This document shows positions 2,240-45,729 of a stretch of DNA of 54,401 bases, in pieces (the stretch's first letter is position 1; each line of letters begins with the position of its first letter). The notes under the pieces are model-generated. The model did no database searches and was not told where the DNA came from. It worked only from the letters and a program-made list of their open reading frames with translations. Position numbers and translations under genes: made by a program. This DNA comes from Verrucomicrobiota bacterium (GTDB taxonomy: Bacteria > Verrucomicrobiota > Verrucomicrobiia > Limisphaerales > JAKPVM01), in NCBI GenBank assembly GCA_029572555.1, contig JAKPVM010000189.1, positions 1 through 54,401 on the forward strand, given 5' to 3'.

Positions 2240-3742
2240 ATGAGTTCAATACTAAAACTGATGGGGTGTGTAATAGTGGCAACAATACTTGTTTCTTTCG
2301 CGGTTTTTGCGGAAGAAACAAGAACAGAACCTTCCATTGAACAACGCCTTTCAGACCTTGAATCGTACGTGAACAATGTCGGAAGGACGGCGGACTCATC
2401 AAAAAATATACAATCTAAACTGGCAGTGTGCGATTCTAACAAAGGTTCTTATTCGCCTTTGCCAGGACCCGGGCATAATGCGTGGCTTATGATGAGCACG
2501 GCTCTGGTCCTTTTTATGACGCTCCCGGGACTTGCTCTTTTCTATGGCGGATTAGTTAGAAAAAAGAATGTGCTTTCCGTGCTTGCGCAATGCATAGCAA
2601 TCGCTGGGTTCGTAACCATTTTATGGTGGGTTTTTGGATACAGTTTTGTCTTTGCAGATGGCGGAGGTCCAATAATTGGAAACTTTACTAAATTTGCATT
2701 TTTCAAAGGCGTTAATTCTTTCGTTAATACCAATTATTGCTACTGGGTATCACACAATATTTTTGCAATATTTCAGATGATGTTTGCAATAATAACGCCC
2801 GCATTGATTGTGGGTGCAATCGCGGAACGAATCAAATTCTCGTCTCTGTTGATGTTCATAGGATTGTGGATGGTCATAGTTTATTTTCCACTCGCTCATA
2901 TGGTCTGGGGTATTGACGGATTAATGAACGGTGTATGGAATCCAAACGCAAAAATAAGAGCGTTGGACTTTGCCGGCGGCACCGTAGTTCATATGTCATC
3001 CGGTTGGTCAGCCCTGATTTTCTGTCTAATTTTAGGAAAAAGACTCGGCTTCCCAAGAGAACAAATGCCACCACATAATATGGTTCTTTGTATGATTGGA
3101 ACTGGAATGTTATGGGTCGGCTGGTACGGTTTTAACGCAGGAAGCGCGCTGGGCGCCGATATAATAGCGGCAAATGCTTTTGTTACAACCACCATTTCTG
3201 CGGCAATTGCATCTTTCGTATGGGCAATGCTCGAATGGATAATAAAAGGCAAGCCAAGCGTTCTCGGCTTCTGCTCCGGAGCTGTTGCAGGTCTTGTAGT
3301 AATAACACCGTCTTGTGGTTTTGTAACAACAAACGGTGCAATAATAATCGGTATTGTCGCTGGAATTATACCATACCTCGCTGTATCCTACCTCAAACCA
3401 AAACTCGGTTATGACGACTCGTTAGATACTTTTGGCATTCACGGTGTTGGCGGAACAATTGGCGCCCTTTTAACTGGTATACTTGCAACCAGTTCTGTAA
3501 ACGGGAATTTGACAGATGCAAACATCGCTGCGAAAACAAACGGTCTCGCAAACCTTGTCACTAACGGTGGTCTTGTTTTTGAACAACTTAAGGCTATTGC
3601 CATTACACTGTTAATTTCAATTATTGGCACACTTATTGTCGCCTTCCTGGTCAAGTTTTCTGTTGGATTAAGACCCAATGAAGAGGCTGAAACCATTGGT
3701 CTGGATTTATCAGAACATGGCGAAGAGGCTTATCACCACTAA
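2240..3742 (+). CDS. amt: Ammonium transporter Amt
   Basis: 500-residue Amt/Mep/Rh family channel for ammonium uptake across the inner membrane. The ATG at 2240 is chosen over an upstream in-frame codon at 2192 because it starts directly with a signal peptide (residues 1-24, hydrophobic core then AVFA) and avoids overlapping the PII gene. Residues 25-75 form a predicted extracytoplasmic segment with a heptad-like stretch before the first Amt helix. The twin pore histidines are present: H251 in VVHMSSGW and H401 in GIHGVGG. FYGGLVRKKN (101-110) is the conserved first-loop motif. It follows the PII gene and is probably cotranscribed with it. Confidence 0.93.
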   Translation: MSSILKLMGCVIVATILVSFAVFAEETRTEPSIEQRLSDLESYVNNVGRTADSSKNIQSKLAVCDSNKGSYSPLPGPGHNAWLMMSTALVLFMTLPGLALFYGGLVRKKNVLSVLAQCIAIAGFVTILWWVFGYSFVFADGGGPIIGNFTKFAFFKGVNSFVNTNYCYWVSHNIFAIFQMMFAIITPALIVGAIAERIKFSSLLMFIGLWMVIVYFPLAHMVWGIDGLMNGVWNPNAKIRALDFAGGTVVHMSSGWSALIFCLILGKRLGFPREQMPPHNMVLCMIGTGMLWVGWYGFNAGSALGADIIAANAFVTTTISAAIASFVWAMLEWIIKGKPSVLGFCSGAVAGLVVITPSCGFVTTNGAIIIGIVAGIIPYLAVSYLKPKLGYDDSLDTFGIHGVGGTIGALLTGILATSSVNGNLTDANIAAKTNGLANLVTNGGLVFEQLKAIAITLLISIIGTLIVAFLVKFSVGLRPNEEAETIGLDLSEHGEEAYHH

Positions 3743-42361: not shown

Positions 42362-43531
42362 CTATATTAGCCCTCGTTTATTAAATTCGTTTATTACAAA
42401 ATTGTATTCTCCAATTAATTGTTCGACTACATTTCTGTTCTTAAATGACTGTGGCAATATGTTGAAGGTATAAGTTTCAATTTCAAAATGTGAACATATA
42501 GAGGGCGATTTTTTTAGGATATCCATCATATCTTGAATATGAAATAGCGTGCTTCTTATTGGTGGTTCGGGGATAGAATAAAGCGGGATATGAAAATGGA
42601 TCCGCCATTCTTCCATTTCTGGGAAGCGATTTTCTTCAGCCATTTTGAGCGCAATATCCAAATCTTTAACTCTAATTAATAAACCGTTTTTTGTCTTAAT
42701 TATTGTTTGATGTAAATAGGTTGGCTCGCTAAAAGTTTTTAAAATTCTCAGCACCGGTTTTGTTGGAATTACAGAGATTGCGCAGGAGAGATGAATTTTG
42801 CTTACTTTAATTCCTACGTTAACAAGCCGAGTAATCGCATCATTCGCATCTTCATATTCAATTGCAATATGACAGCAATCGTAATTAATTCCTAAATGCT
42901 GTTTAAGTTGCGCTTCATCAGGATAAATTTCCAGCAATTGTCCAAAGAAGTCAACGAATTCAGAGGTTGTCTCCACTAATCCTAATGGTTCAGGTTCAAT
43001 GCCAAGATGTAATACCCTTTTCTTTTTATCAGCCAATCTCTCAATATAATCAACGCACCTTAATAGATTTGCCTGTGCCGTCTTTAATTTTTCTGACGAT
43101 AAATTAAATTCCTTAAATGAAACGGGCATCGTGCTTACGCTACCATCGCAATCTTCCGGGACAATTTCACTCAAAATATCAAATAACACTTTGGTATATT
43201 CAAGCCGCTCTTCGCTTGACCAGTCCGGAAGAAATACCTTTTCTTTTACATAAGTATTGTGAAATTCGCCGTAAGGAAATCCGTTTATGGTAAAGACATA
43301 ACTATTGTTTTCATCAAGCCATTTTCTAAAGTGTAAAAGTTGTGATTTATCCTGCAACTCTTTAGCCGCCAATGCGCTTAACCTTAATCCAATTCCGAAT
43401 CGTTTTGAACCAGCAACAGTTTTTCGGACGCAATTTGAATATTTACGCAAAGCGTCAAAGGTCTCATCCCAACTTTCTGCGGGATGGATATTAGTAGAAT
43501 AGGCAAGGTGAAAATTGGGACTAAATTTCAT
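42362..43531 (-). CDS. eboE: EboE-like sugar-isomerase-fold protein
   Basis: 389-residue protein resembling EboE, a TIM-barrel protein of the xylose isomerase-like/AP endonuclease 2 fold. The start FHLAYSTNIHPAESWDE and the segment GFPYGEFHNTYVKEKVFLPDW are characteristic of EboE; LHLGIEPEPLGLVETTSEFVDFF and GINYDCCHIAIEYEDA follow the metal-site strands of the fold. In cyanobacteria the ebo genes are needed to move scytonemin precursors to the periplasm, and in Pseudomonas they are linked to nematode repulsion; the chemical step is unknown. It lies 26 bases after the TatD-family gene. Confidence 0.8.
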   Translation of the reverse strand: MKFSPNFHLAYSTNIHPAESWDETFDALRKYSNCVRKTVAGSKRFGIGLRLSALAAKELQDKSQLLHFRKWLDENNSYVFTINGFPYGEFHNTYVKEKVFLPDWSSEERLEYTKVLFDILSEIVPEDCDGSVSTMPVSFKEFNLSSEKLKTAQANLLRCVDYIERLADKKKRVLHLGIEPEPLGLVETTSEFVDFFGQLLEIYPDEAQLKQHLGINYDCCHIAIEYEDANDAITRLVNVGIKVSKIHLSCAISVIPTKPVLRILKTFSEPTYLHQTIIKTKNGLLIRVKDLDIALKMAEENRFPEMEEWRIHFHIPLYSIPEPPIRSTLFHIQDMMDILKKSPSICSHFEIETYTFNILPQSFKNRNVVEQLIGEYNFVINEFNKRGLI

Positions 43532-43557
43532 ATCAAAAATTATGGATAAATTGAATT

Positions 43558-44361
43558 TCAGATTACTTTAAAGTTTGGCGACTGGGACAAAAATTTATAA
43601 GGGTTTTGAAAAATTAATCTGTCAATTTCCTCTTCGCTATGTCCTCGTTGGCGCATTTCCAGGGCCAGATACGGCACAGCCAGAGGAAGGCTATTGCCCC
43701 AATCAGCGGCGCCATTTACCCAGATTCTTTCAAAACCATAGATTTCAATAATATCAATAGCCCTTGCAGTGGTGCATTTTGTTTGCGGATACAAGGTCAA
43801 GCCAGCCCAATAACCTTCATCGAGGGCTAACTTGACGGTATGTTCTTCACAATGGTCAATTATGACTTTATGAGGTGGAATTTTGCCATTGTTTTTGATG
43901 GCATCAATCGTCAGCCGCGTTCCTTTTAACTTATCTTCCAGATGTGGTGTATGAACAAGGACAAGTGTTTGATACTTTGCCGCAAGTTCCAGTTGCATTT
44001 CCAACACCTTTAATTCATTTTTGGTATTTCTGTTTAAGCCGATTTCTCCAATCCCAAGCACATTTTGATGATTAATGAAATTCGGTATCATTGAAACGAC
44101 ATCTCTGGCAAGTTGGAGGTTTTCGGCTTCTTTAGGATTGATGCACAGCCAGCAAAAATGCTTTATGCCATAGCGAGCAGCGCGTTTAGGTTCATATTGC
44201 GTCAACTGGATAAAATAATCTTTAAATCCATCCGCTGAACACCTATCAAATCCTGCCCAGAAAGATGGTTCGCTGATAGCAACACAACCTGAAACAGCCA
44301 TTTTTTGATAATCATCAGTAACCCGGCTTACCATGTGTATGTGTGGTTCAATATATCGCAT
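43558..44361 (-). CDS. TatD-family metal-dependent hydrolase, EboB-like
   Basis: 267-residue amidohydrolase-fold enzyme. Metal ligands are complete: H7 and H9 (PHIHM), E106 (GIGEIGLNR), H137 (LVHTPH), H170 (IIDHCEE) and D220 (GAADWGN). It differs from housekeeping TatD nucleases in its start (YIEPHIHMVSR) and in segments such as SEPSFWAGFDR, and matches the TatD-like protein found in Ebo clusters. It lies 12 bases after the 90-residue gene and just upstream of the EboE-like gene, so the three form one operon. The substrate is unknown. Confidence 0.8.
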   Translation of the reverse strand: MRYIEPHIHMVSRVTDDYQKMAVSGCVAISEPSFWAGFDRCSADGFKDYFIQLTQYEPKRAARYGIKHFCWLCINPKEAENLQLARDVVSMIPNFINHQNVLGIGEIGLNRNTKNELKVLEMQLELAAKYQTLVLVHTPHLEDKLKGTRLTIDAIKNNGKIPPHKVIIDHCEEHTVKLALDEGYWAGLTLYPQTKCTTARAIDIIEIYGFERIWVNGAADWGNSLPLAVPYLALEMRQRGHSEEEIDRLIFQNPYKFLSQSPNFKVI

Positions 44362-44373
44362 AAAACATCTTTG

Positions 44374-44646
44374 TTATTTAGATTGTGAAGGATTAAATGC
44401 GCCTATTGCAGATTTTGAATCCGATTTTTCAATAGGTTCAGAGGTCAGGTCGCTAAACGATAACAAGGAGCGTTTTGCACATTCAGGCTCTTCCTTGGTT
44501 AATTCATATAAAGCCTTTCTAAATGCAGCCAATCTAAAATCCTCGCTGCCATTAGCCCTCTCAACACGGTCAATAAATGCCGCAATTTCTATAAGGTTAT
44601 GGCGCGCCGCCAAAAAATATAAATCAAGAACCTCTTTCTTTGTCAT
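44374..44646 (-). CDS. Small unknown protein heading the Ebo-type operon
   Basis: 90-residue soluble protein: a mostly helical N-terminal half (MTKKEVLDLYFLAARHNLIE, IAAFIDRVERANG) and a polar C-terminal tail. It is far shorter than EboA (over 200 residues) and I do not recognise a domain. The overall composition and its position, 12 bases before the TatD-like gene on the same strand, support a real gene. The divergent GDP-fucose synthase gene starts 120 bases away. Confidence 0.65.
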   Translation of the reverse strand: MTKKEVLDLYFLAARHNLIEIAAFIDRVERANGSEDFRLAAFRKALYELTKEEPECAKRSLLSFSDLTSEPIEKSDSKSAIGAFNPSQSK

Positions 44647-44766: not shown

Positions 44767-45729
44767 ATGGGACTTAATAAGGACGGAAAAATTTATATTG
44801 CGGGTCATACCGGACTTGTTGGCAGCGCATTATGGCGGGAGCTACAAAGACAGGGTTACACAAATCTTGTAGGTAAAACGCGGGATGAACTTGATTTGAT
44901 GAACACTCAAGCAGTGAACCTGTTCTTTGAAAACGAACGTCCTGAATTTGTGTTTTTAGCTGCTGCAAAGGTTGGTGGCATCCTTGCAAATAGCAAATAT
45001 CCTGTTGATTTTTTGCAGGACAATTTGAAAATTCAACTCAACATCATCGAGGCTGCGCACAAATACGGCATTAAAAAACTATTGTTTCTTGGGAGTTCCT
45101 GCATATACCCCAAATATGCCCCGCAACCTATGAAGGAAGAATATCTTTTAAACGGTGCTCTTGAACCTACAAACGAATGGTATGCTATCGCAAAAATTGC
45201 AGGATTAAAACTTTGTCAGGCATATCGCAGGCAATACGGCTGCAATTTTATCAGTGTAATGCCAACAAACCTGTACGGTATAAACGACAATTATCATCCA
45301 TCTGATTCGCACGTCTTGCCGGCTATGATTCGGCGATTCTATGAAGCCAAAGAATCAGGCGCCGAATCAGCTACCTGCTGGGGAACAGGAACACCAAGAC
45401 GAGAATTTTTATATGTTGACGACCTTGCCAATGCCTGCCTGTTTTTAATGAATAACTATGATGATGAACAAATAATAAACATTGGTTGCGGATATGATAT
45501 TACAATTAAAGAATTAAGCGAAATAGTCGTTGATGTCATTGGATACAATGGCAAAATCAACTGGGATACATCAAAACCAGACGGTACGCCAAGAAAACTT
45601 CTTGATTGCTCGCGAATCTTTTCTATGGGCTGGCGTCCAAAATATGATTTAAAAACAGGCATCAGACTCGCCTACGAAGATTTTCTTAAAAGATACAAAA
45701 CAGGTTCTTTTGAAAAAGGCAGATTTTAA
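44767..45729 (+). CDS. fcl: GDP-L-fucose synthase
   Basis: 320-residue short-chain dehydrogenase-type epimerase/reductase that turns GDP-4-keto-6-deoxymannose into GDP-L-fucose for surface glycans. NADP-binding [10 protein letters not shown] (13-22), catalytic S110 and C112 (GSSCIYP), Y139 and K143 (YxxxK), and [13 protein letters not shown] are all present. The partner GDP-mannose 4,6-dehydratase (gmd) is not adjacent. It is a single gene, with no Shine-Dalgarno sequence. Confidence 0.92.

Follow-up and report, generated by a model that had tools for sequence, protein, structure and literature searches.

The locus lies on contig JAKPVM010000189.1 of a Verrucomicrobiota bacterium (GCA_029572555.1), at positions 42362 to 44646 of the stretch that we analyzed (positions 1-54,401; 54,401 nt in all, here called the window). 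As the earlier note had reported, three open reading frames (ORFs) follow one another on the minus strand: a 90-aa ORF, a gene for a TatD-like protein, and eboE (Table 1). The first two are separated by 12 nt and the last two by 26 nt, and with such short gaps the arrangement looks like an operon. A GDP-L-fucose synthase-like gene (44767-45729) is divergent from the 90-aa ORF at a distance of 120 bp; the two could share a regulatory region.

Table 1. Genes of the locus, under the names assigned to them here
Gene	Position in window	Strand	Description
eboG	44374-44646	-	90 aa, predicted all-helical; takes the place of EboA, immediately ahead of eboB
eboB (EboG-type)	43558-44361	-	267 aa, TatD-like, putative metal-dependent hydrolase
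eboE	42362-43531	-	389 aa, TIM-barrel protein; matches NF035939

The 389-aa protein scored 430.6 bits on the NCBIfam model TIM_EboE (NF035939), whose cut-off is 250, in an alignment that spans all but the last of the 379 profile positions (1-378); on the generic xylose-isomerase barrel PF01261, it reached only 20 bits, below the cut-off. On these scores, it is not an ordinary xylose isomerase-like protein, and we rejected that reading. The 267-aa protein was recognized as TatD-like (PF01026, 42 bits) but matched the TatD/YchF exonuclease model only weakly, with 32 bits against 206, and scored 17-32 bits on TatD models; poor performance on TatD/YchF exonuclease models has been published for EboB (PMC5133447). 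The 90-aa protein had zero Pfam or NCBIfam matches in a profile search, and a comparison of 56 of its relatives with both collections revealed no family beyond scattered weak matches.

That the small ORF is a real gene follows from its conservation, since 104 of 146 genomes from the same order encode a homologue with 41-62% identity. Homologues on two Deinococcus plasmids are the sole hypothetical protein within a complete ebo operon, which has the order eboD-[90 aa]-eboB-eboE-eboC-eboF; another homologue is carried on a Gemmatirosa plasmid, and a scan of named genomes detected more in Herpetosiphon aurantiacus DSM 785, Acidobacteria, Armatimonadota, Planctomycetota, Nitrospirota, Kiritimatiellota, and others. 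In H. aurantiacus DSM 785, Deinococcus, and Acidobacteria, the homologues fill the slot that EboA takes elsewhere. Yurchenko et al. (2016; PMC5133447) described eboG as encoding a short, poorly conserved protein in place of eboA, in Acidobacteriaceae, Thermithiobacillus, Herpetosiphon, and Deinococcales, which are without eboA. Judged by taxon, by operon slot, and by a genome that is without EboA, the 90-aa protein is identified as EboG, a previously described, uncharacterized protein. The novelty that had been claimed for it therefore had to be given up, the same gene having been named in 2016 and found in the same slot. AlphaFold2 predicted a confident three-helix bundle for EboG (mean pLDDT, 90; helices at residues 3-30, 37-50, and 56-62) with a looser C-terminal tail. 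A search of this model against PDB folds returned nothing significant (best E value, 4.2), and the EboG profile had no credible match among PDB sequences; the family is currently without a Pfam or NCBIfam model and without a solved relative. Its invariant charged residues are R15, D26, R27, R30, D36, and R38.

The window's EboB is 52-60% identical to EboB of the Deinococcus and Gemmatirosa ebo loci. In a 52-row EboB tree, from which true TatD DNases were left out, EboA-type and EboG-type sequences were split at 100/100, as reported previously (PMC5133447), and the window's EboB fell on the EboG side; the EboA-type side includes one Gloeothece EboB without an adjacent EboA. Together with the EboE match, this placement bears out the assignment of both larger proteins to the Ebo family. 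The candidate metal ligands of EboB (H7, H9, E106, H137, H170, and D220) are invariant in all members compared, of both types, whereas other positions, such as 39, 58, 73, 110, 142, and 172, distinguish the EboA type from the EboG type. By sequence, its closest solved relative is AF_1765 of Archaeoglobus (PDB 3guw; E value, 4e-21), which is an uncharacterized TatD-like hydrolase. A second, separate EboB clade (support, 100/99) accompanies a short EboG-like protein at three loci (L119, L120, and L122, in genomes G335, G168, and G304); two of these genomes, G335 and G168, have an EboG-EboB pair of the normal kind in addition and so contain two pairs but a single EboE.

EboA and EboG alternate. 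Among the 146 genomes of the order, their overlap is zero: a convincing EboA was detected in only three (G031, G058, and G065), all of which encode EboE and lack the 90-aa protein. The EboA-linked EboB of these three genomes is of the other type, with 41-45% identity to the window's EboB. EboA lies directly upstream of EboB in 5/5 annotated plasmid examples; each of the two proteins is thus encoded immediately before EboB, and they share an operon slot. The shared slot, and the helical character of both proteins (that of EboA by published prediction), would suit a very divergent, shortened EboA. We rejected this reading, to which we give very little credence: no EboA domain was found in the whole of the window's own genome, in which NF035938 was unmatched, a profile-profile comparison of EboG with EboA (hhalign) gave a probability of 0.2%, meaning no homology, and the HHalign test in PMC5133447 was likewise negative. 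EboA is also much larger, at ~220-250 aa or longer, and has other invariant residues. The statement that the small protein is not EboA was accordingly upheld. Three genomes of the sample (G010, G048, and G086; loci L106, L108, and L110) contain EboE, divergent in G048 and G086, and no detectable EboG or convincing EboA, EboD, or EboF.

The earlier note had described the cluster as truncated, with only EboE and the TatD-like protein left, and offered two accounts of this: a pathway split over the genome or a minimal version of it. The genome is represented by a metagenome-assembled genome (MAG) of 3.34 Mb in 356 contigs, 82.7% complete. The search for eboA in it was fruitless, as stated above, whereas homologues of eboC, eboD, and eboF were all found. 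Of two UbiA-superfamily genes, one is of the MqnP/UbiA type (contig C37), and the other (C79) has EboC as the best among all NCBIfam models, with an E value of 5e-33 and 114.7 bits on NF035940, short of the curated cut-off of 250. This model is apparently tuned to EboA-type operons, and we counted the C79 gene as an EboC homologue and not as a certified equivalog. Two dehydroquinate synthase genes are likewise present, the first AroB-like (C257) and the second, on C136, an EboD homologue; a phosphodiesterase on C147, which matches far better than any other family member in this genome, is an EboF homologue. A relative of the same order (L064) carries the 90-aa gene-eboB-eboE-eboC-eboD-eboF in one run, whose eboC, eboD, and eboF share 35%, 46%, and 55% identity with the C79, C136, and C147 genes, respectively. 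Sequence inspection indicated that the latter three are singletons amid housekeeping genes: the first is next to ribBA, the second near hemB, and the third next to polX. Since these homologues lie on three other contigs, we consider it very probable that the ebo set is split over the genome and is complete, not minimal; in an assembly this fragmented, their contigs and the locus may still be physically linked. The gene identities are nearly certain.

The same layout recurs across the order. The 90-aa gene was found in 104 of the 146 genomes, EboE in 109, EboD in 109, and EboF in 107, with all four in 90. Where the 90-aa gene is present, EboE accompanies it in 97/104 genomes and EboD and EboF in 98/104 each; in a phylum sample, ~54 of 56 genomes with EboG had EboE. 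The p-values for association ranged from 1e-12 to 1e-27, as calculated with the relatedness of the genomes ignored. Absences are soft, MAGs being incomplete, and several genomes with EboE only have congeners that carry EboG. Linkage within 6 kb was observed for 45/97 pairs of the 90-aa gene and EboE and for 71/105 pairs of EboD and EboF, compared to 3/98 pairs of the 90-aa gene and EboD. This dispersal is not merely an artifact of assembly, since in the single-contig genome G071 the 90-aa gene-EboE and EboD-EboF pairs are 1.3 Mb apart. Dispersed ebo genes are the usual layout of the order.

These data also bear on the possibility of a true minimal pathway, in which EboG, EboB, and EboE suffice and the eboC, eboD, and eboF homologues elsewhere are unrelated housekeeping paralogues. 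Just three genes are clustered at the locus, the genome's own EboC is under the curated cut-off, and an EboE match is missing from 7/104 EboG genomes, all of which could be cited in its favor. However, the dispersed genes match the operonic ones of L064, the genome has separate aroB-like and MqnP/UbiA-type genes besides, EboD and EboF travel with EboG at the frequencies given above, and nearly all of the seven EboE-less genomes retain both. Already largely refuted by the dispersed homologues and by co-occurrence, the minimal pathway was rejected as extremely improbable. Of the two accounts in the earlier note, the split one stood.

EboB is the gene that stays. In 77/80 loci from about a dozen phyla, EboB is directly downstream of EboG on the same strand, one of the exceptions being a contig end, and in 53/58 it is within 1.5 kb; in dispersed genomes, EboG remains with EboB where all other ebo genes leave. 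The pairing is near obligate, and no EboG-EboB gene fusion was found among the 80 loci. Between eboB and eboE, insertions of ~2.2 to 2.6 kb were observed at L150 (7143-9659), L151, and L171 (7132-9387); on inspection, their content included an ATPase-type regulator-like gene that runs in the opposite direction (Herpetosiphon giganteus) and ABC-permease-like genes (Luteitalea).

We next consider the divergence of the two proteins. In 21 complete operons, the EboG and EboB distance matrices correlated at 0.86, and the partial correlation, with the other four proteins removing shared history, was 0.74, a value that 0/5000 permutations reached. The corresponding values for EboE, EboC, EboD, and EboF were -0.05, -0.03, -0.15, and -0.19, respectively, and thinning to 17 operons raised the EboG-EboB value to 0.80. 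The divergence of EboG tracks EboB specifically and not the other Ebo proteins, an observation that is new here. Adjacency alone is insufficient to produce this signal, because EboD is the other neighbor of EboG in most of the 21 operons. Joint transfer of the eboG-eboB pair, instead of contact, could also yield matched divergence. Gene order and covariation together suggest that EboG is probably a dedicated partner of the EboB hydrolase.

A few EboG genes without a nearby EboB (L176, L186, and L123/L124) speak against such a partnership, and it is to these rare orphans and to a distinct shorter variant that occurrences in unrelated contexts, which the earlier note would have held against its proposal, were confined. 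At two of the orphan loci, L186 (EboG at 2886-3161) and L123, EboG is closely followed by a prolyl-tRNA synthetase-like gene. The variant, an EboG-like protein of ~70-84 aa, is encoded directly upstream of a TadA-like deaminase in L116, L118, and L125 (family f94, same phylum); no EboB is near it, and EboE is elsewhere in the genome.

EboG might instead act apart from EboB, as an independent enzyme or terminal-step factor, and direct the pathway toward an end product other than that of the EboA version. Alternative products were raised as a possibility in PMC5133447, the mutual exclusion of EboA- and EboG-type operons is compatible with them, and the six invariant charged residues could be read in the same way. 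We consider this unlikely: a 90-aa protein predicted to form three helices and a looser tail has no recognizable active site, its divergence follows EboB only rather than the whole pathway, and it stays with EboB where the other genes are gone.

Our preferred reading, to which we assign a probability of roughly 0.7, is that the locus carries eboG, eboB, and eboE of a complete EboG-type set, whose eboC, eboD, and eboF are dispersed, and that EboG serves EboB. It resembles the published EboG-type ebo operon (PMC5133447) in that all six genes are in the genome, EboG replaces EboA directly upstream of EboB, and EboB groups with the EboG-type sequences in the tree; it differs in that only eboG, eboB, and eboE are together, the others being singletons on other contigs. 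With the EboA-type clusters of cyanobacteria, Bacteroidetes, and Pseudomonas (EDB cluster), it has homologues of EboB, EboC, EboD, EboE, and EboF in common, but the genome is without EboA, its EboB belongs to the other clade, and scytonemin genes are not expected in it.

In the proposed mechanism, EboG would be a small helical subunit of the EboB metallohydrolase, acting as its scaffold, activator, or chaperone. It would bring EboG-type EboB into the enzyme set, as the unrelated EboA does for the EboA-type enzyme. It is conceivable, at somewhat less than even odds, that EboA and EboG are unrelated, interchangeable helical partner subunits, each with one EboB clade, and that the swap of partners defines two versions of the Ebo pathway, with a switch between them within a single bacterial order. 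The remaining enzymes would be the sugar-phosphate cyclase EboD, the TIM-barrel isomerase-like EboE, the phosphodiesterase/phosphatase EboF, and the membrane prenyltransferase EboC, and the set is thought to make a prenylated carrier, probably derived from a sugar or cyclitol, that moves small molecules across the inner membrane. In Nostoc, every tested ebo deletion keeps the scytonemin monomer in the cytoplasm, and it is in Nostoc alone, for this monomer, that the export role has been shown genetically (PMC6282210); an EboC homologue attaches farnesyl groups to quinoline-like aromatics (PMC9235831). A carrier or export function for the ebo set is offered only tentatively.

The reassignment of the locus corrects its reading as a truncated or minimal cluster, and it links the role of EboG more narrowly to EboB, a prediction that is directly testable. 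The Ebo set is a widespread bacterial gene set, and a complete one can have just two or three of its genes together; gene-cluster searches will miss such sets.
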